Of a DNA stretch of 64,000 nucleotides, positions 3,101 to 18,524 are shown piece after piece (within the stretch, counting starts at the first letter, position 1; the number at the start of each line of letters is the position of its first letter). The position numbers were made by a program, and so were the translations under genes. The notes under the pieces were generated by a model that worked only from the letters and a program-made list of their open reading frames with translations, made no database searches and had not been told where the DNA came from. The DNA is taken from assembly GCF_002572525.1 (NCBI RefSeq), contig NZ_PDBS01000002.1, positions 124,001-188,000 of the forward strand, in the 5' to 3' direction. This stretch comes from Natrinema sp. CBA1119. GTDB taxonomy: Archaea > Halobacteriota > Halobacteria > Halobacteriales > Natrialbaceae.

Positions 3101-3970
3101 ATGGCGTATTCAATCCCAGAGGTGATCGCGGTGTCGTTTCAGAAAGGAGGGACCGGAAAGACGTTTACAGCGATGAATCTCGCAGGCGGTCTCGCTGCCA
3201 GAGGTTTTGAGGTTCTCCTGGTCGATATGGACCCCCAGGGAACGCTTACTGCAAACCTCGGACATCGTGAGCTGTTTGATGATCTCGACAAGCTCTCACT
3301 CGACGAAGTGCTGCTTGACGTTAACAAGTGGGACCAGATCACCGATCTCGTAATCGAACACGACGAGTTCGATGTGATCCCCGCGAACTCGACATATACA
3401 GGTAACAAGACCCCACTAGATTCTGCTGACGCTGGAGAAAAGCGACTCGGGAAGATACTCACGCGACTGGAAACTGACTATCACTACGTAGTATGTGACT
3501 GTCCACCCGATTTCTCCGCCTTTGCAAAGAATGCCGTCACTGCCGGTGAAAACGTGGTCGTCCCGATGGTGCCACGGTCGGAGATGGTTCACTCGACGAA
3601 CCTCCTGTTCGACATGTACGACACCCTCGGGATGATGCACGATCTCGACATCGAGTATCTCGCCTTCACGATGACGTACACCTCGACAAAGGAAACGAAG
3701 CAAATGCGCGAGGTACTGGACTGGTTCGACGATACCTTCGGTGAGAAAGGAGTGAAAATCGACGACCGCGCCGCGTTCGATCGCGCAAAATGGGAAGCTG
3801 GCTCCATCTATGTCCACGACGAATCACTCCAAAACGACCAGTTCCCACAGTTCGATACGGTGGTCAAGCGCGTGTTAGATCAAACGTCACCGCCTGATTT
3901 CAACGGCGACGTCGAGGCGATGCGTCAGAAATCCACCGATGAAATCCGATCACGAGAGATCGAAGCATGA
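3101..3970 (+). CDS. parA: ParA-family partition ATPase
   Basis: The protein is 289 residues. It carries the deviant Walker A motif QKGGTGKTF near residue 14, with the signature lysine, then VLLVDMDPQG (switch I) near 40 and VVCDCPPDF (Walker B) near 130. This is the ParA/Soj/MinD family that segregates plasmids by ATP-dependent nucleoid binding. The stop overlaps the start of the next gene by 4 bp (ATGA), so the two are translationally coupled. The AT-rich palindrome array upstream is the likely regulatory or centromere region. The start at 3101 directly precedes the conserved IAVSFQKGG block. Confidence 0.92.
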   Translation: MAYSIPEVIAVSFQKGGTGKTFTAMNLAGGLAARGFEVLLVDMDPQGTLTANLGHRELFDDLDKLSLDEVLLDVNKWDQITDLVIEHDEFDVIPANSTYTGNKTPLDSADAGEKRLGKILTRLETDYHYVVCDCPPDFSAFAKNAVTAGENVVVPMVPRSEMVHSTNLLFDMYDTLGMMHDLDIEYLAFTMTYTSTKETKQMREVLDWFDDTFGEKGVKIDDRAAFDRAKWEAGSIYVHDESLQNDQFPQFDTVVKRVLDQTSPPDFNGDVEAMRQKSTDEIRSREIEA

Positions 3971-4533
3971 GCGACCTCGAAGACGAAATGGAGCGAACAA
4001 AAGAGCGAGCAGCTGCGTTCGGCGTGGGTGGCGAGACGGACGACCAAGACGAGGAAGACGTTGATACCGAGGAAGACGCGAGCGAAAGCGTCGCCGAGCA
4101 ATCCACTACCGAAGAAGGGGATGAGAGATCAGAAGCAGATGAAGCATTAGAAACGTCAGAAACATCCCCAACAGTAGAAGGAGACCGTACGCCAGAAATA
4201 GAAGAGAGAGACGGGTCAGCGGAACCAGAGCAGACTGGCGAAGATGTACCGGCAGATACTGAAGGGGAGTCCGAGTCAACTGAGGACAACGCTACCACGA
4301 GTAGCGAGGATTCGTCTCGTGGGCGTCTCGTCGACGAATACGACAATGTGAATATCTACATCCCGCCTGAACTGAAGCGAGATCTCAACGATCTCTTCAA
4401 ACTCATGGACCTCGAGTACTCCCGATCGAAAAGCGATGATTTAGAGAAGCACTGGGATTTCTATCCGGCGGTCGTTCGAACAGTGCTTGAGAATGAAGAG
4501 GACCTCCGGGCTGAACTCGGAATTGACGAGTGA
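3967..4533 (+). CDS. ParB-like partition partner (acidic N-terminus, DNA-binding C-terminus)
   Basis: The protein is 188 residues. Residues 1-115 are a very acidic low-complexity tail rich in E, D, S and T. The conserved part starts near 118 (YDNVNIYIPPELKRDLNDL), which reads like a beta strand followed by helices of a ribbon-helix-helix or ParB-like DNA-binding domain. It overlaps parA by 4 bp. Position, coupling and architecture argue for the centromere-binding partner of ParA. No canonical ParB/Spo0J nuclease domain is present, so this assignment rests on context. Confidence 0.65.
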   Translation: MSDLEDEMERTKERAAAFGVGGETDDQDEEDVDTEEDASESVAEQSTTEEGDERSEADEALETSETSPTVEGDRTPEIEERDGSAEPEQTGEDVPADTEGESESTEDNATTSSEDSSRGRLVDEYDNVNIYIPPELKRDLNDLFKLMDLEYSRSKSDDLEKHWDFYPAVVRTVLENEEDLRAELGIDE

Positions 4534-4572
4534 GTTATATTCCGATGCCTGGCCTACTTCAACATCGAAGTC

Positions 4573-4899
4573 CTATTCGCTCGATTGGACTGGTCCTTTA
4601 TACTCCGATTTGATCGAATCTCCTTCACGCCACTGCCAGTAATAGTAGCGGTTGTCGTTGATCTCCTTCACTGTGATCGTGGCTTTAGAGGGGACATCGT
4701 CTGGGAGGTCCTCAAGTCGCTCCTCAACCTGGTCCTCCCCGTCCTCGTATTCAGCAAGGCGTGCTTCGCGCTCCCGATACTCGGCAAGTTCCTCGGCGTA
4801 ACGTCCGATGTGCCGGAGTAGGTCGGGTGAATACTCATCTAGCGCCTCGACGACGTCGACGGGGAGTTCCTCCGGCGGGGTCGGTGGAGAGTAGGACAT
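4573..4899 (-). CDS. Haloarchaeal small protein (DUF6788-like)
   Basis: The protein is 108 residues. A coiled-coil-like charged segment (YAEELAEYREREARLAEYEDG, in part) spans residues 33-55. A compact C-terminal block follows, with KATITVKEINDNRYYYWQW and YKGP, a pattern seen in haloarchaeal DUF6788-type plasmid proteins. The function is unknown. It lies convergent to the par operon and downstream of orc1/cdc6. An inverted repeat element (copy B) sits 14 bp upstream of its start and may contain its control site. Confidence 0.65.
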   Translation of the reverse strand: MSYSPPTPPEELPVDVVEALDEYSPDLLRHIGRYAEELAEYREREARLAEYEDGEDQVEERLEDLPDDVPSKATITVKEINDNRYYYWQWREGDSIKSEYKGPVQSSE

Positions 4900-4913
4900 G
4901 GAACACGACCGTA

Positions 4914-4955
4914 TTAACCAACACCGACGTTAATTACCATAGTGCTGTTGGTTAA
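4914..4955. repeat. Inverted repeat element copy B (42 bp)
   Basis: TTAACCAAC at 4914-4922 faces GTTGGTTAA at 4947-4955 with 24 bp between. It lies between orc1/cdc6 and the 4573-4899 gene. Confidence 0.85.
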
Positions 4956-5013
4956 GCCAGTAGAACGGAGCACACTCATAGGAAATCCTGCGGAAAACGG
5001 AGAATTCCTCGGC

Positions 5014-6252
5014 CTACATCGTGGCGAATTCTTCACCGGAATCGGGAAGATAGTCGACAATACTCCGGTGAGCACCGAATTCACTAATTGTAGTCTGGAG
5101 AGCGTCGACAACGGTCGCGATGTCGCGGTTGATCTCGTGTTCGCGGTACGTACCGCCGTCTTGGCCACGATGTTCCTTGTGGGAGAGTGTGAGATTGAGC
5201 ATCTCGAAGTCGGAAAGGAAGCTCCGCATCCGACGGGCTGTACGGGGATCCCGAGCCTGAAACTCGCAGAGTTCCTTGTATCGCTGGTAGACGACACGTG
5301 ACCGCGCCGGAGTTTCGTCCTCGGCGGCGAGCGTTGTGAGCGCGTACAGTGTAAGTTGTTCGTGTTCGGTGAGATCACGCATGATATCCATGCTTTGCTG
5401 GGCCTCAAGTTTCTCTTGGGCGCGTTCGACGAGATCAGTCGTGACTGTGGATGCGTTCTCTGTTCGGGCGAGATCGCCAGCTTTCCGGAGAAGCGTGATT
5501 GCCCGTCGAGCATCACCGCCATCCTGTCGGCCGAGTGCAGCACAGAGTGGAATTACATCTTCCTCAAGTGCGTTTTGGTGGAACGCGATTTCGGCCCGCT
5601 GTTCAAGCACCTTCTGGAGTTCTTCTGTTCCATATGGCGGGAACGAAATCTCGGTTTCACAGAGCGATGACTGAACCTTCGCATCGAGCTGCTCTCGGAA
5701 TGTCGAATCATTGCTAATGCCGATGAGACCAAGCTGGATGTTGTCGATGTATCCGTTGTTGTCGGCACGCGTGATCTGATAGAGAAACGTATCGTCAGAG
5801 ATGTGGTCGATCTCGTCGAGGACGATGATGACTGTCCCGGAGAGTTTGTTGAGTTCGTCCCAAAGAAGACGATAGACTTTGGACTGGGGATGCCCGGTCT
5901 CGGCGATGTGGTTTTCGGGGTCACGGAGATTGTTGACGAGATTGATTGCGGCCTGGTAACTCGTGCTGAGGCCGTCACAGTTGACGGTAACGAAGGCAGT
6001 GTCGACAGCGAAGTGTTCCGCGGAGTCCCGAAGTTCATTGAGAAGGAAGTTCGTGACGGCAGTTTTCCCGACACCAGTCTTCCCGTAGATGAAAATATTG
6101 TCGGGGTACTCCCCATTGATGATTGGCTGAAGGGCGGCTTCGTACTCTTCGATCTCGTTATCCCGGCCAACGATGTCATCCGGGATGTACTCTACCTTGA
6201 GCGTGTTGCGTCGTTTATAGAGCGTATCGTCGGGTTGGAACCGAGGACCCAT
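5014..6252 (-). CDS. orc1/cdc6: Orc1/Cdc6 family replication initiator
   Basis: The protein is 412 residues. An AAA+ ATPase domain carries Walker A IYGKTGVGKTAV near residue 55 and Walker B VIIVLDEIDHI near 140. Sensor 1 follows (LIGISNDSTF) and then a sensor-2 arginine block (GGDARRAITLLRKAG). A C-terminal winged helix that binds origin recognition boxes spans about 295-412. The gene is transcribed away from an ORB cluster directly upstream (6297-6820), the usual arrangement of haloarchaeal initiator genes and their own origins. It very likely initiates replication of this replicon. Confidence 0.95.
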   Translation of the reverse strand: MGPRFQPDDTLYKRRNTLKVEYIPDDIVGRDNEIEEYEAALQPIINGEYPDNIFIYGKTGVGKTAVTNFLLNELRDSAEHFAVDTAFVTVNCDGLSTSYQAAINLVNNLRDPENHIAETGHPQSKVYRLLWDELNKLSGTVIIVLDEIDHISDDTFLYQITRADNNGYIDNIQLGLIGISNDSTFREQLDAKVQSSLCETEISFPPYGTEELQKVLEQRAEIAFHQNALEEDVIPLCAALGRQDGGDARRAITLLRKAGDLARTENASTVTTDLVERAQEKLEAQQSMDIMRDLTEHEQLTLYALTTLAAEDETPARSRVVYQRYKELCEFQARDPRTARRMRSFLSDFEMLNLTLSHKEHRGQDGGTYREHEINRDIATVVDALQTTISEFGAHRSIVDYLPDSGEEFATM

Positions 6253-10971: not shown

Positions 10972-11436
10972 GTGACTGACACGAACGCCGACGGCTTCGA
11001 CCATGACTCACATCTGCGCAAAACCTTCGACCTCGCTCGTGAGGCCGCCGATCGCGGCGACAAGCCGTTCGGCAGCGTGCTCGTCCGCGGCGATACGATC
11101 GTCATGACCGACTCGAACCGTGAGGTCACGGAGAACGACATCCGCCGGCATCCCGAACTGCATCTCGCCTACCGCGCGTGTCGCGAACTCGACCCGGACG
11201 AACGTTCCGAGACGGTGATGTACACGAGCACGGAGCCGTGCCCGATGTGTGCCGGGGGAATGGCCAAGGCCGGATTCGACCGCGTCGTCTACAGCGTCGG
11301 CAGCGACGAGATCGCGGAGTTCACGGGTGACGAGCCGTCGGTTCGGTCGGCAGAAATCCTCGACGGCGTCAGCGACGTCGTCGGGCCTGTTCTGAACGAC
11401 GAGGGACGGCAGATCCACGAGGAATTCGACTGGTGA
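10972..11436 (+). CDS. CMP/dCMP-type nucleoside deaminase
   Basis: The protein is 154 residues with a GTG start. The zinc-dependent deaminase motifs are complete: HPEL near residue 60 (zinc His and proton-shuttle Glu) and EPCPMCAGGM near 83 (zinc Cys pair). KPFGSVLVRGD before them matches the guanine/cytidine/tRNA-adenosine deaminase superfamily. The length suits a free nucleoside or guanine deaminase; the substrate cannot be fixed from sequence. It is the only plus-strand gene in this block and lacks the leader element, so it is probably independently inherited. Confidence 0.85.
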   Translation: MTDTNADGFDHDSHLRKTFDLAREAADRGDKPFGSVLVRGDTIVMTDSNREVTENDIRRHPELHLAYRACRELDPDERSETVMYTSTEPCPMCAGGMAKAGFDRVVYSVGSDEIAEFTGDEPSVRSAEILDGVSDVVGPVLNDEGRQIHEEFDW

Positions 11437-12638: not shown

Positions 12639-13805
12639 GTGATGGGTACGAGGGAATCCAAGGTGAAAGTCGTCATCGAGGTGCCCGACTCGCTCGTGGA
12701 GCAGATCCGTCTCGCTGTTGAGAGCGGCGAGTACGACGATGCCCGCGAGTTCGTAACAACAGCCGTCGAGAACCAACTTGAGTCAGAAGAGGCCAGCCAA
12801 CAGGAGGCCCAAACGCTTGAGGAAGCTATCGCTACAGTAGCAGAGGACCAGAGTCGTGAGATAGCTGTCGAGAACAACATTGAGGATAGTTCCGATAACG
12901 ACTCCGGTCAAAAGCCACAGGTAGACGCCCAGAAGGAAGAACGAGAATCCAATCCAACAGATACCCCGATTGGACGCCGTCAGTACGACGAGATCGAGAC
13001 GGTCTCTCAACCGAATACGGCTCAACTCGACGAGGGGCCGCTTTGGGGACAGTACAACCGTCTATTCCCGGTAAAACTAGTCGTACGTTGCCTGGCCAAC
13101 GAACTCGAGCGTATCAAAGATGAGCGTGCGGAATCGTCCCAGTGGATCAATTTACCCCAGTTCGATAATCACACTGCGGACATCGCTCGAACTGTCGGCA
13201 AAAAGGTCGCATCTCACGATGAACGACAAGGCCGTAAACGGGGAGAGAAACTCGCGGCGGGGCTCCCTACCGGAGAAGATGCCGAGAAATCGATGGACCG
13301 GTTCCAGACGCATTTCGTTGGACGGGCAGAACACGGGGGCAACCTAACTGGGGCACCTCCTCATCTGCTGCTCGTCAATATGCAGCAAGAGGATGGTGGA
13401 ACGATCGGGCTTACTGAAGCCGGCCGTGAATTCGCCTCACTGGAAAATCCACTGCTCGACGGAGGGTTCGATGCAAGTAATTCACTCTCGCGTGCGGAAC
13501 GGCGTTTCTACGTCTCGCACGTCCGGGACGTTCGGCCCGAAGAGCACGAAGCGATGGAGAAGGTTGCTCAAGCCATCGAAGAGGGCGATGATCGTCCTAC
13601 TTCGTTGACGGAGCGCGTGGCGTATCTGAACCCGAACTGGTCGAACTCCCAGGCCAAGACCATTCGATCTGGGCTTACCAGCCGGATGTACGAACTCGGG
13701 CTGGTCGATCGGCGCCGTGTTGGTCAACGAGGTACCGCCTACGAACTAACAGCCGAAGGTGACGCGTTCCTCAATAAGGGGGCCGCGTTTGCGACCGACA
13801 ACTAG
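12639..13805 (+). CDS. RHH/winged-helix protein, first gene of the helicase operon
   Basis: The protein is 388 residues, with a GTG at 12639 or the ATG directly after it. Residues 7-55 (VKVVIEVPDSLVEQI, YDDAREFVTTAVEN) are a CopG-type ribbon-helix-helix. A charged linker follows to about 125, then an unrecognised central domain (PLWGQYNRLFPVKLVVRCL). The C-terminus carries a winged helix (SNSQAKTIRSGLTSRMYEL, then a wing with GTAYELTAEG). It heads a tight operon and may recognise target DNA or regulate the locus. No known named family was recognised. Confidence 0.75.
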   Translation: MMGTRESKVKVVIEVPDSLVEQIRLAVESGEYDDAREFVTTAVENQLESEEASQQEAQTLEEAIATVAEDQSREIAVENNIEDSSDNDSGQKPQVDAQKEERESNPTDTPIGRRQYDEIETVSQPNTAQLDEGPLWGQYNRLFPVKLVVRCLANELERIKDERAESSQWINLPQFDNHTADIARTVGKKVASHDERQGRKRGEKLAAGLPTGEDAEKSMDRFQTHFVGRAEHGGNLTGAPPHLLLVNMQQEDGGTIGLTEAGREFASLENPLLDGGFDASNSLSRAERRFYVSHVRDVRPEEHEAMEKVAQAIEEGDDRPTSLTERVAYLNPNWSNSQAKTIRSGLTSRMYELGLVDRRRVGQRGTAYELTAEGDAFLNKGAAFATDN

Positions 13806-13819
13806 TAACCCCAACACTA

Positions 13820-14707
13820 ATGTCAGGAAACGAGAATCTCACGAACGAATCGATGACAAGTAGTCTCTCTCCTGGAGACGAGTGGCCCTTCCACTACCGG
13901 GGCTATGGACTGAGTGCGAATCAAGACGGAGAGGTGTGGTGGCAGGTCTATAACGGCACTGATCGGCTGAAACTTGATCCCACTCCGACCGACTTCGTCG
14001 AGAATCTCCTCAGGGTCAAGCGCAATGGGGGTGCCGTGAGAGTCACGGAAGCTGGCACCGTCATTGCTCAACTCGAGATCGAGACGGATGGTCGTTCGAA
14101 CGACTACGAAACCGTCTACATCGGAGAGCTGGATCTCGACGGAGAACTCGTCCCCCCAGAGAAACCGGAGCGCTCCGTGCCGATCAGCCCGAATGGCCTG
14201 GACCCCGGCGATCTGTGGACGAGCATCTACGATGGTGCCAAATACTCGTTCAGCGGCGACCGGTTTTGGTGGCAAAATGGTGAGACCAAGCTTCGGCACT
14301 CGTTCGCCGACACCCTCCCCCGCGGGATTGTCAATGAGCTAAAGCAACTCCGTCCGGAAGGCGGGTCGTTTCAGATAACGCCGGTAGGGGATGTGCTCAC
14401 ACAACTTCCTACGGCAAAGTCACCGCCGGACGTACGAGAACAGTTCCGGGATCTCCCCCGTCCGGTGAAGCGGATTCTCCAGCTCCGCCGTGACCGTGGA
14501 AACGTCGATAAGCTACCGGTCTACGTCGGCCATCTCGAGCCAAACGACCGTCCGATAGAGGTCGAAGAGCCGACCCGACTCACGGATCCGCTTAATGAGC
14601 AGGAAGAAGCATCTCTCGAAGCTTGGGCCGCTCACATGGGGTCGTACGAGGAGAGCGACCTCTCGGAAGAGGACCACCAGCTCGATGATACCGAGGAGGG
14701 ACGCTAA
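13820..14707 (+). CDS. Repeat-domain protein A of the helicase operon
   Basis: The protein is 295 residues. It contains two copies of a module of about 100-120 residues (about 18-108 and 130-250). Each begins PGDxW, passes a YxG pair and Trp-rich strands (EVWWQVYNG; DRFWWQNGE), has an L-R-x-GG turn (RPEGGSFQITPVGDVL), and ends VYIGEL or LPVYVGHL. The same module occurs in the next protein and at the helicase C-terminus. The function is unknown; a shared oligomerisation or substrate-reading domain is an inference. Its TAA overlaps the next ATG by one base. Confidence 0.8.
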   Translation: MSGNENLTNESMTSSLSPGDEWPFHYRGYGLSANQDGEVWWQVYNGTDRLKLDPTPTDFVENLLRVKRNGGAVRVTEAGTVIAQLEIETDGRSNDYETVYIGELDLDGELVPPEKPERSVPISPNGLDPGDLWTSIYDGAKYSFSGDRFWWQNGETKLRHSFADTLPRGIVNELKQLRPEGGSFQITPVGDVLTQLPTAKSPPDVREQFRDLPRPVKRILQLRRDRGNVDKLPVYVGHLEPNDRPIEVEEPTRLTDPLNEQEEASLEAWAAHMGSYEESDLSEEDHQLDDTEEGR

Positions 14708-15597
14708 TGAGTACGCAAAGTACACAAGCGGCTCTCGAACGTGAGTCCACCGAAGTCCCCATGGACGGTGGCCGGCAGGTAACAGTCATGCCTGGGAACC
14801 CGTGGCCATCAGCGTATCGCGGCTCGGAGTACAGCATCGTCTCCTCGCGAAAGCACGGCGATGTCGCGCAGTGGAGCCATATGGGCGACATCCAGGCAAT
14901 GACGGGAGTGCCACGCGGACTCAAAGACGCTCTGCAGAACCTCGAGAAAGCCGATGGTCGGGGGAGCTTCCGGTTGACGGCCTCGGGCGAGGTTCTCACA
15001 AAAGTCCCCGCCGACAAGTACCGGAAGGTCAGTGAAGCACCTGTCAGCCGTGGCCACATCCCGGTCTACGTCGGAAAGATCGACGGGACGTTTGACTTCC
15101 AGGCCTTCTCGAATGATCCAACGCCTCCTAGCGGTATCGGTGAGGTAAGCGTCTGGACGGGTTTGCCGTTTAAACACGGCGAGACGTGGGCAGTGTGCTC
15201 TGACGACGTCCTCCGATGGAGCTGGCAGGACTACTACTTCGAGTCAGCGTTTGACCATCCGGAATTAGCTGAGACCTACAAGCGATTCCGACCAGCGGGC
15301 GGGCTGATCTACCTCAACGAGCATGGCCACGTGTGGGGGAACATCAACCGTGAAGACGTCCCGGCAAGCGAACGGGATCGGATTGGAAACGCCTACGGAG
15401 AGTGGCAACAGACTGCCTCAAATGCAGAGCAACGACTCGTCACTCGGCGTCTGAAACGGATGGAAAGCGAGTCTGCGCCCGACGGTCTGCTCCCCGTATA
15501 CTTCGGCCATCTCAGCCAGTATGATAGCGGTCTCGTGCCGAAGGCTGTCGTCAAAGACAAGACGTACTTTACTGACACTGCGATGGAGCTGGATTAA
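14707..15597 (+). CDS. Repeat-domain protein B of the helicase operon
   Basis: The protein is 296 residues and a paralogue of the preceding one. Module 1 spans about 30-120 (PGNPWPSAYRGSEYS to HIPVYVGKIDG). Module 2 spans about 147-285 (KHGETWAVCSDDVLRWSW, RFRPAGGLIYLNEHGHV, LLPVYFGHLSQYD). The first gene's stop overlaps its start (TAATG), so the pair is probably made in fixed proportion. There are no transmembrane or catalytic motifs. The N-terminal 30 residues are polar and unlike gene A. Confidence 0.8.
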   Translation: MSTQSTQAALERESTEVPMDGGRQVTVMPGNPWPSAYRGSEYSIVSSRKHGDVAQWSHMGDIQAMTGVPRGLKDALQNLEKADGRGSFRLTASGEVLTKVPADKYRKVSEAPVSRGHIPVYVGKIDGTFDFQAFSNDPTPPSGIGEVSVWTGLPFKHGETWAVCSDDVLRWSWQDYYFESAFDHPELAETYKRFRPAGGLIYLNEHGHVWGNINREDVPASERDRIGNAYGEWQQTASNAEQRLVTRRLKRMESESAPDGLLPVYFGHLSQYDSGLVPKAVVKDKTYFTDTAMELD

Positions 15598-15635
15598 CAC
15601 CCCTTCGAAATGATCAGCCATAACCAAATTCGCTA

Positions 15636-18524
15636 ATGGGACGACGCTTTACCACCCCGGTATTCGGCATTGAACGAGGCCCCGAATGGGTGCCAACACT
15701 CGTAGAGATAGCCAGACGACACGACGGAGAGCTAACACGCGACCAGTTTGAGGATCTCTGCCGCGAGGAGTGTCGGAAACCCGATGGAAGCCGCTACTCT
15801 TCAAGTTACATCGAACGGGCTCTCTCGACCTTCATCCAGCTTGGCGTCGTGCGTGAGAAGGACGGAACGATCACTGTGTGGGAGTTTGCCAAGGAATTTG
15901 ACGACGACGAAATCGAATATTCAGAATTTCTCTGGCGTGGGATCAAACAGAGTTGGGTTCTTGCAGGGAACTTCCCGGAGGGAATCGAGGGACTGCGACA
16001 AACACACTATGTCGTGACTCACGCTGAGGCTCCGCTTTCGAGTACAGAGATTCGCGAGCAATTGACCGAACAGTTCGATTACGAATACAATGACGCCGGT
16101 ATTCGGGGCTACCCGGAATTACTCACTCAACTCGAAGCCCTCCGTCAAACTGAGGATGGATACGTTCCCGGTCCTCGTTCGAGTACGTTCGAGGGTCGAT
16201 GGCGAGGGCGTGCCAATGTTTTCTTCAAGCTTGAACGGTGGCTCCACCATCGTGGACCGACTGTTGACGTTCCCCGAGATACGATCAAGAAAGCCTTGAT
16301 GAAGTACTACATGTATCGAGAGTCCGGTGGGTGGGGACGTCATCGGCGGCTCTATAACCGATTCCTCGAGGATTACATCCGGGAGACCTCTCGGAAGAGC
16401 GATGTTGCTAACCCCCAGATACATCTTTCGGAGGAATATCATAAGGACGAGGACCCCCGTGAAGACTTGAGAGACGATATTAAGGAGAAATTCCCTGGGA
16501 TTGATGGGCAAGAACTTGGGGGTCTGTATCCGGACACACTCGAAGACATTCTGGCAGCTGATACTGAGCAAGAAGCCCGCGAAATTCGTGCAACAGCGAG
16601 TCCGGGTATATCTAGACGCGACCTCCAAAGCCTTGTAGATGAAACTCGCGATCCCTATACGCCGCCAGCTGATTTTTCGCTGTTTGACTGGCAGCAAGAG
16701 GCTATCGACCAGTGGTTCAATGATGACGATTCTACGGCTGAAAGTGGAATCGCACAGGTAGTTACCGGAGCGGGGAAGACTGTTATGGCACTCGGTGCCA
16801 TCAATGAATGGCTCGAGAAGCATCCTGATGGGGCAGTTACCATCGTTGTTCCGACGAAGGTACTGATGCATCAGTGGCTTCGAGAATTTATTGAGAAGCT
16901 GAATGTTCCGCCCTCAGACATTGGGTGGGCAGGTAACGGGCATAAGGACTCTCACGGTGAATGTCGGATCATCGTCAGTATCGTTAACTCCGCCGTCAAA
17001 GACGACTATCTTAGGACATCACTCAGGGAAGCTAATACCGACGAACACCTCCTTGTCGCCGACGAGTGCCATCGCTACACCGGCGACGTACATTCTCAGG
17101 TGCTCAAGTATCCGAACTCGGCGACGATGGGACTGTCTGCAACCCCTCTCTCGACAATTAACCCTGAAGAGGACGAGCTCACAGAAGACGACGAACTACT
17201 ACTTGACAATCTGGGAGCGCTGTTCTATCACCTGAACTACGAGGAGGGTGTCGAACGAGGGCTTGTCTCCGAGTTCACCATTAATTACGTCGGGTTCGAA
17301 CTGACTCCAGCCGAACAACACACCTACGAACAGTTCTCGAAGAAGGTTTCCTCAGCCGTTCAGGACATCGAAGCCCGGTATAGCCACCGTTTAGGGGAAC
17401 TCCATGGAAGTTATCCGCAAAAACTCCAGACAATCCTGCAGACCTCTGACACGCCTACGCCTGCAATCTCGGACTTCTTCGAGTACACGCAGCGCCGCCG
17501 TGAGTTGATCGCCGAGGCCGTCTCTCGGCAGGCGATCACGCATCGCCTCCTCGAATCCGCCATTGAGCAGGACAAGAAGTCGATTGTCTTCCAGGAGCGC
17601 ATCAAGCAGCTTGAACAGATGGTCGCTCCGTACGATCACCGGGATGAAGAAACTCAAACTGGGAAGTACGGTTCTAAGGAAAGTGGACGCGCAGACCTCT
17701 ACCGACAGTACGAAAACGAACTTGATGAGGTAAACCGAGATCTTGAGGATCTCTTCTTCAAGGGAAGTTACGCGCCTGTGATGTACCATTCCGGCCATCA
17801 GAATGACGAATGGAACGACTGGGCCATTGAGTGGTTCCGAGACGACGGATTCGCGAACGTCATGTTGAGCGTGCAAGCACTGAAAGAGGGGGTTGACGTC
17901 CCCTCAGCAGATGTTGGAATCATCCGCGTCTCGTCAGGCAACGTTCGGGAGCGAATCCAGACACTCGGGCGTATCCTTCGGACGGGTAATGATCCCGATA
18001 TGCCCTCGACGCTCCATGTTCTCTATGCTCGGGATACAGTAGATGAACGAATCTTTGAAGAAGTTGACTGGGAAGCTGAAATCGGCGGCACTCACGAGTA
18101 CTACAAATGGGAAACCGGCGAGGAAGTGATTAAGGGTGAACTCGTTGGGCCAAGCCCTGAATTCGAACCTGACGTCTCGCCATATCAGCCCCCTGAAATC
18201 CCCGATGTCTCTGACCTTGAGCGAGGCGATCCATATGAGGGCCCCCGACGTGGCCAAACTATTAGTGTCAACGCCGAGGGACGGCCATTCCGAGATACGG
18301 AAGATGGACGCAAATTCATCACAACTCCAAAAATTGAATCAGTGGCCGAGTATGTGTACCGGCTCCGAGGCGGAGGTCGCATCATAATCAACGATGCCGA
18401 TCACATGATTACGGTCACCGAGGAGGGGCCTGTCTTCCTCGGGGTTCTGGAATCGAATTCATTCGAATATGAGGAACAGGAGGACGATGAAGTTCCAGAG
18501 AGCTTTGAGGATTTCGTGAGTTGA
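15636..18524 (+). CDS. SF2 DEAD/DEAH-type helicase with C-terminal shared module
   Basis: The protein is 962 residues. The first 340 residues include winged-helix-like segments and no known enzyme motif. The helicase core follows: Walker A VTGAGKTVMAL near 378, VADECHRY (motif II, DECH) near 474, GLSATPLS (motif III) near 497, LKEGVDVPSADV near 750 and RIQTLGRILRTG (motif VI) near 772. A C-terminal tail (about 870-960, YRLRGGGRIIIND, GPVFLGVLES) repeats the module of the two preceding proteins. It is an ATP-dependent DNA translocase, likely the motor of a four-protein system. Confidence 0.88.
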   Translation: MGRRFTTPVFGIERGPEWVPTLVEIARRHDGELTRDQFEDLCREECRKPDGSRYSSSYIERALSTFIQLGVVREKDGTITVWEFAKEFDDDEIEYSEFLWRGIKQSWVLAGNFPEGIEGLRQTHYVVTHAEAPLSSTEIREQLTEQFDYEYNDAGIRGYPELLTQLEALRQTEDGYVPGPRSSTFEGRWRGRANVFFKLERWLHHRGPTVDVPRDTIKKALMKYYMYRESGGWGRHRRLYNRFLEDYIRETSRKSDVANPQIHLSEEYHKDEDPREDLRDDIKEKFPGIDGQELGGLYPDTLEDILAADTEQEAREIRATASPGISRRDLQSLVDETRDPYTPPADFSLFDWQQEAIDQWFNDDDSTAESGIAQVVTGAGKTVMALGAINEWLEKHPDGAVTIVVPTKVLMHQWLREFIEKLNVPPSDIGWAGNGHKDSHGECRIIVSIVNSAVKDDYLRTSLREANTDEHLLVADECHRYTGDVHSQVLKYPNSATMGLSATPLSTINPEEDELTEDDELLLDNLGALFYHLNYEEGVERGLVSEFTINYVGFELTPAEQHTYEQFSKKVSSAVQDIEARYSHRLGELHGSYPQKLQTILQTSDTPTPAISDFFEYTQRRRELIAEAVSRQAITHRLLESAIEQDKKSIVFQERIKQLEQMVAPYDHRDEETQTGKYGSKESGRADLYRQYENELDEVNRDLEDLFFKGSYAPVMYHSGHQNDEWNDWAIEWFRDDGFANVMLSVQALKEGVDVPSADVGIIRVSSGNVRERIQTLGRILRTGNDPDMPSTLHVLYARDTVDERIFEEVDWEAEIGGTHEYYKWETGEEVIKGELVGPSPEFEPDVSPYQPPEIPDVSDLERGDPYEGPRRGQTISVNAEGRPFRDTEDGRKFITTPKIESVAEYVYRLRGGGRIIINDADHMITVTEEGPVFLGVLESNSFEYEEQEDDEVPESFEDFVS

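Follow-up and report, generated by a model that had tools for sequence, protein, structure and literature searches.

P2-P3-HEL, a three-gene unit passed between haloarchaeal species beside differing defence genes, is probably an undescribed antiviral module

What is the function of four closely packed genes, one of them encoding a superfamily 2 (SF2) helicase, in plasmid-like surroundings of the haloarchaeon Natrinema sp. CBA1119? The genes, here named P1, P2, P3 and HEL, form a compact plus-strand operon at positions 12639-18524 of the window, as we call the whole 64,000-nucleotide stretch that was analysed (contig NZ_PDBS01000002.1, positions 124,001 to 188,000). We consider it roughly 60% probable that haloarchaeal plasmids carry an undescribed DNA-surveillance (restriction-like) system, modular and driven by ATP, whose core is P2, P3 and HEL. 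The unit is transferred between species as a cassette and is found beside differing defence genes; from this gene context we infer a role in defence, and the unit is probably an antiviral module. The original prediction had described a compact four-gene operon on the plus strand, and all four open reading frames were recovered:

12639..13805, plus strand: P1, 388 amino acids (aa), with a ribbon-helix-helix-like N-terminal segment (~12663-12788) and a conserved winged-helix-like C-terminal segment (~13488-13763); accessory, present only in the locus type of the window (type A)
13820..14707, plus strand: P2, 295 aa, with two copies of a shared module
14707..15597, plus strand: P3, 296 aa, with two copies of the shared module; its start overlaps the P2 stop
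15636..18524, plus strand: HEL, 962 aa, SF2 helicase/translocase

The gaps are 14 base pairs (bp) between P1 and P2 and 38 bp between P3 and HEL, and P3 begins on the last base of P2, so the four genes read as one operon. All four are under purifying selection where the synonymous rate dS could be measured (dN/dS ~0.04-0.2).

P2, P3 and HEL share a module of ~90-130 residues. P2 and P3 each contain two copies, and a fifth lies at the HEL C-terminus:

13862..14155, plus strand: module P2a, P2 residues 15-112
14195..14554, plus strand: module P2b, P2 residues 126-245, carrying a two-helix insertion
14779..15099, plus strand: module P3a, P3 residues 25-131
15142..15531, plus strand: module P3b, P3 residues 146-275, the most divergent copy
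18210..18473, plus strand: module HELc, HEL residues 859-946

Module profiles were built from 24 P2, 26 P3 and 26 HEL relatives and compared pairwise. All ten pairs gave profile-profile probabilities between 37.6 and 98.6%, whereas none of 120 controls, made with pieces of neighbouring families, exceeded 6.2%; the high score of HELc against a piece of HEL reflected overlap and was excluded as a control. The weakest pairs were P2b-HELc (37.6%) and P3a-P3b (39.5%, over 16 columns only), and P3b was linked chiefly via P2b (90.8%, 74 columns) and HELc (70.9%). Judged from these profiles the five modules are homologous, as had been proposed, with P3b the least certain of the five copies. The structural comparison covered P2a, P2b and the HEL copy. 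In the AlphaFold model of P2, which was good (predicted local distance difference test, pLDDT, 82), both copies consist of three strands, a helix and three strands, and residues 873-937 of the HEL model follow the same order, in line with the common fold that had been expected.

The combined module model matched P2, P3 and HEL alone, across all loci. Searched against 243 genomes, the module profile found five copies per intact system; one genome, which also has an orphan P3, gave seven. Additional weak or relic matches were present in three of the 243; the two stronger ones were broken HEL C-termini. These remnants, which are signs of loss, lie in two other haloarchaeal genomes (L141:9266-9709 and L142:8829-9287). 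Occurrence of the module in further proteins was rejected, the extra matches being only relic HEL C-termini. At E<=1, neither P2 nor P3 matched a family in Pfam, NCBIfam or PADLOC, except for a Pfam line for P3 that is spurious (Auxin_inducible, E 0.02); PHROGs gave one weak line for P2. None of the PDB sequence matches of P2, P3 or the module was credible, and where the module profile matched designed beta-propellers and calmodulin, composition and repeat noise is the likely cause. No published description of the P2-P3-HEL set was found in the openly searchable literature, and the view that no described system covers all four genes held against the 2023 PADLOC models, where P2 and P3 match nothing at E<=1.

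Two further regions were delimited in HEL:

15636..16274, plus strand: N-terminal domain, residues 1-213, tandem winged-helix-like, resembling in structure only the recognition domains of BpuJI and Nt.BspD6I
16650..18137, plus strand: SF2 motor core, residues 339-834; its nearest match is PbeA in profile searches and archaeal XPB in fold comparisons

The Pfam content of HEL was limited to SF2 families (ResIII and Helicase_C). The original designation as an SF2 helicase was upheld by motifs I-VI, which are near-invariant in 26 relatives, and because these motifs are intact in all of them HEL is probably an active motor. The top PADLOC model was PbeA (E 8e-47, residues 333-784) and the top NCBIfam model dnd_restrict_1 (E 2e-33, far under the family cut-off), while the DrmD model matched motor residues only (E 8e-4). 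The best fold match of the core was archaeal XPB, including XPB-Bax1 repair complexes (VIA; Foldseek E 9e-11). The model of residues 1-213 matched BpuJI with a Z of 9.7 (185 aligned residues, root-mean-square deviation 4.6) and Nt.BspD6I with a Z of 9.1-9.3 (VIA). In this model HEL appears to share a tandem winged-helix arrangement with these type IIS enzymes (Z 9.1-9.7), but it has a motor in place of the nuclease and no detectable sequence similarity to them; the Pfam scan found no nuclease domain in HEL. From the type IIS likeness of the N-terminal domain and the intact XPB-like motor we infer that HEL may be a sequence-reading translocase.

The profile of the HEL N-terminal domain matched 12 of 243 haloarchaeal genomes, and these were exactly the genomes with the full module set; the conserved unit is therefore the three genes P2-P3-HEL. 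The four-gene set of the original prediction had to be reduced accordingly, since P1 is absent from Natrinema pellirubrum and from the locus types B and C described below. Relatives of P3 were found in 17 genera, in 22 of the 392 haloarchaeal genomes searched (a few are fragments), and a scan of named taxa added Halorubrum, Haloquadratum, Haloarcula, Halobellus and others. Nearly all copies of the unit are on plasmids or plasmid-sized contigs. No member was found outside the order in 393 genomes drawn from the phylum. IMG/VR contigs held no P2 or P3 relatives and phage records no P3 relatives, which rules against a viral origin in the viral sets searched.

The loci fall into three types, with counts that rest on homology maps and not on full annotation. 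Type A, to which the window belongs, has the order P1-P2-P3-HEL. A NERD-type nuclease-like protein of ~597 aa whose motif looks intact (EGDILILHDDEPIIIECKGK) precedes P1 in Halobaculum, Halalkaliarchaeum and two Halorussus species. A block of ~8 kilobases (kb) with 95-96% identity is common to Halobaculum, Halalkaliarchaeum and Halorussus litoreus; it contains the NERD nuclease, P1, P2, P3 and HEL and spans from the NERD gene (or just before it) to 10 bp past the HEL stop. Its flanks are unlike, which marks it as a transferred cassette. On the Halalkaliarchaeum plasmid pAArc-CO the NERD-type protein (L037:9994-11784, plus strand, 597 aa) also has GapS1- and CARF-nuclease-like profile matches. 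The nuclease gene was not found in the window or its genome, in a genome search run without a positive control genome. In the type A copy of N. pellirubrum, the nuclease and P1 are both missing; a candidate P1 variant there proved to be an unrelated protein. Upstream of this copy, on pNATPE02, are genes for AAA ATPase, MBL-fold and Piwi-domain proteins (L036:3873-10902), and the vicinity of several P2-P3-HEL loci likewise contains AAA, MBL and VWA genes.

In type B, found at 12 or more loci in many genera, HEL-P2 faces a SNF2-F03-F02-P3 set. For the SNF2 protein, DrmD and BrxHI are the top-scoring models. F03, which matches no family in Pfam, PADLOC or NCBIfam, is a cysteine-rich protein whose 34-48 CxxC motifs form an array. 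F02 matches Mrr_cat (E 3e-6) but is probably a pseudo-nuclease, since its alignment shows A/G-x-K/R where the catalytic E/Q-x-K would be expected. In Halorhabdus tiamatea both genes lie on the minus strand of pHTIA (F03 at L040:7217-10501, F02 at L040:6198-7217, each with relatives elsewhere). F03 and its relatives have ~1100 aa and 110-150 cysteines, the CxxC motifs forming a regular zinc-knuckle-like array. The relatives, in ~15 loci, are often just 32-35% identical, and the neighbouring genes are far better conserved. In type C, two genera have the order pbeA-pbeC-pbeD-P2-P3-HEL, all on one strand and with ~200 bp from pbeD to P2, and a third has P2-P3-HEL-dndC-dndD-dndE-dndA. A Haloquadratum contig (L072) carries a type B set joined to a P2-P3-HEL unit, and types B and C adjoin in one genome (L047/L048). 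Type I restriction-modification, AbiEi and pAgo genes are among the neighbours of P2-P3-HEL loci. The trees of HEL and P2 concur on the type A clade; Halorubrum salsamenti and one Haloquadratum contig are placed differently in the two, as expected if parts were exchanged.

The operon was filed among multi-gene ATP-driven DNA-defence systems. With DISARM and BREX it has in common a multi-gene make-up with SNF2/SF2 motors, the type B SNF2 protein pointing to the same systems, but its core genes are without DrmA/B/C, PglZ, BrxC or a methyltransferase, and in the PADLOC scan none of the four proteins matched DrmA, DrmB, DrmC or the BREX core models.

An explanation outside defence is that the XPB-like motor and its partners serve plasmid replication, repair or segregation. 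The plasmid location of nearly all copies is in its favour, as is the likeness of the HEL core to archaeal XPB with its repair complexes, although the N- and C-terminal domains of HEL differ from those of XPB, its profile score is higher with PbeA, and no Bax1 (DUF790) nuclease was found among the four proteins in the Pfam scan. The weak best fold matches of P2 also fit, being mostly sliding clamps of several families (PCNA, DnaN; Foldseek and VIA, E 0.05, Z <=3.0, not significant). The viral structure library gave nothing significant and did not clearly repeat the clamp likeness, and a clamp identity by sequence was rejected, the haloarchaeal PCNA profile reaching probabilities of 0.1-0.6%, the same as controls; the fold likeness is a tentative lead. 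This lack of sequence support for a clamp, the patchy spread (22 of 392 genomes), the coupling to dnd/pbe genes and to the SNF2/Mrr-like set, and the movement of the cassette between unlike flanks all argue against a maintenance role, which we regard as unlikely.

A second alternative is that the operon is a divergent, solitary member of the PbeABCD/Dnd family, with HEL a PbeA paralogue minus the HKD nuclease and P1 in the role of PbeD. PbeABCD is a CxC ABC-ATPase/DndE system (PMC6459918; PMC10853773) that was reported not to cleave viral DNA (PMC6459918), a claim that later authors contest (PMC10853773). The original prediction had raised a relationship to PbeABCD, and part of it stands: the HEL motor is nearest PbeA and dnd_restrict_1, and in three haloarchaea P2-P3-HEL adjoins dndCDEA or pbeACD genes. 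The window operon is also without an evident nuclease, a point of likeness to the reported non-cleaving action. Membership was rejected on the defining features. The HKD (PLD) nuclease domain of PbeA is missing from HEL in the Pfam scan, the PbeA match covering the motor only, and the PADLOC scan found no PbeC (CxC-type ABC ATPase) among the four genes. In the window genome as a whole, the PbeC search gave Rad50/SMC-like background only (E 9e-12, against <=1e-213 in genomes with PbeC). P1 has a single, N-terminal ribbon-helix-helix-like segment and matches no model of the double ribbon-helix-helix protein DndE/PbeD in PADLOC or NCBIfam; PbeB, a small disordered protein, has neither a model match nor a small gene in the operon. 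P2, P3 and the five-copy module have no Pbe counterpart. DndC is absent from the window genome and from four other type A genomes searched, so the earlier observation that the window lacks dnd genes extends to the whole genome. Moreover, two of the type C loci hold HEL beside a separate PbeA motor gene, which indicates addition and not replacement. We therefore consider a solitary Pbe/Dnd member distinctly improbable. That the genes merely travel together in plasmid defence islands without a joint function is very improbable: relic HEL ends and decayed copies exist and the P2 and HEL trees partly disagree, but the three genes and five modules strictly co-occur, P1, P2, P3 and HEL are under purifying selection and the HEL motor motifs are conserved.

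If P2-P3-HEL is the core of a DNA-surveillance system, HEL would dock on DNA via its tandem winged-helix domain, which, given its resemblance to type IIS recognition domains, probably reads a sequence or mark. The SF2 motor would then travel along or remodel the DNA. The module common to the HEL C-terminus, P2 and P3 suggests that the three proteins assemble into one complex, HELc binding its four counterparts in P2 and P3 on DNA. The exchange of neighbours suggests that the choice between self and non-self and the harmful step are supplied by exchangeable partners, which would be the phosphorothioation genes and Pbe in type C, the SNF2 ATPase, zinc-knuckle array and pseudo-nuclease in type B, and P1 with the NERD nuclease in most type A loci. 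As no nuclease is adjacent in the window, the window copy would either have to rely on a nuclease gene at another site or halt replication or transcription while leaving the DNA uncut, the mode of action reported for PbeABCD (PMC6459918).

Several observations weigh against this reading. HEL was modelled with modest confidence (mean pLDDT 62), and in the N-terminal domain the pLDDT is ~56-89 in blocks for residues 11-190 and near 40 for residues 190-213. Sequence searches gave no support for the type IIS likeness, and common winged-helix arrangements can reach a Z of 9-10; because tandem winged helices are common and sequence support is lacking, the type IIS-like N-terminal domain is graded a moderate lead. 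In the window operon itself no nuclease can be seen. The dnd/pbe adjacency in three loci could be passive, as unrelated genes gather in defence islands. Finally, types A, B and C are mostly without each other's partners, so that a dependence of the core on any partner is conjectural.

The remaining features concern P1 and the neighbourhoods. The likelier start of P1, judged from relatives, is the GTG at 12663. Its prior description as a ribbon-helix-helix protein was sustained by the annotation of a ~50% identical relative, with Pfam adding only weak RHH_8 matches (E 0.017-0.025). Relatives of P1 at ~50% identity elsewhere head an unrelated operon ending in DUF6339 (L139:10019-14677 and L140:9878-14683, on Halobaculum and Haloplanus plasmids), next to a DISARM-like cluster with PLD, Zn-binding and cytosine methyltransferase genes. 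The genes flanking the window operon had been described as a minus-strand block; they are mostly on that strand, with one plus-strand gene at 10972-11436. ParA-like and Orc1/Cdc6-like genes, identified by eye at 3101-6252 of the window, mark the surroundings as plasmid-like, and several small backbone genes are common to other haloarchaeal plasmids. An AddAB-like pair (a UvrD-helicase and a large PD-(D/E)XK protein) recurs beside type B loci (L039:25565-32613, L058:12972-19788 and L063:2641-9761). In Halalkalirubrum salinum, genes of 344 aa and 157 aa are divergent to a lone P2-P3-HEL (L073:3659-5166); the latter looks CARF-like by eye, and the same family pair recurs near a type B locus (L051:12882-14386).

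A bolder version, tentative and on present evidence unlikely, would make P2-P3-HEL a plug-in immune core common to phosphorothioation-dependent and -free systems, in which HEL reads DNA through its type IIS-like domain and effector sets are interchangeable. The five modules, possibly clamp-like, would join the three proteins into a processive complex that encircles or lines the DNA and stops invaders without cutting. The P2/P3 pair and its module domain are without match in the libraries searched, and the defence-like core has been recombined with different partners, including Dnd/Pbe. If the surveillance-core reading is correct, it would show a route by which some haloarchaeal Dnd/Pbe loci acquire a second motor, and it would provide a tractable haloarchaeal system for how ATP-driven systems halt viruses without an obvious nuclease.

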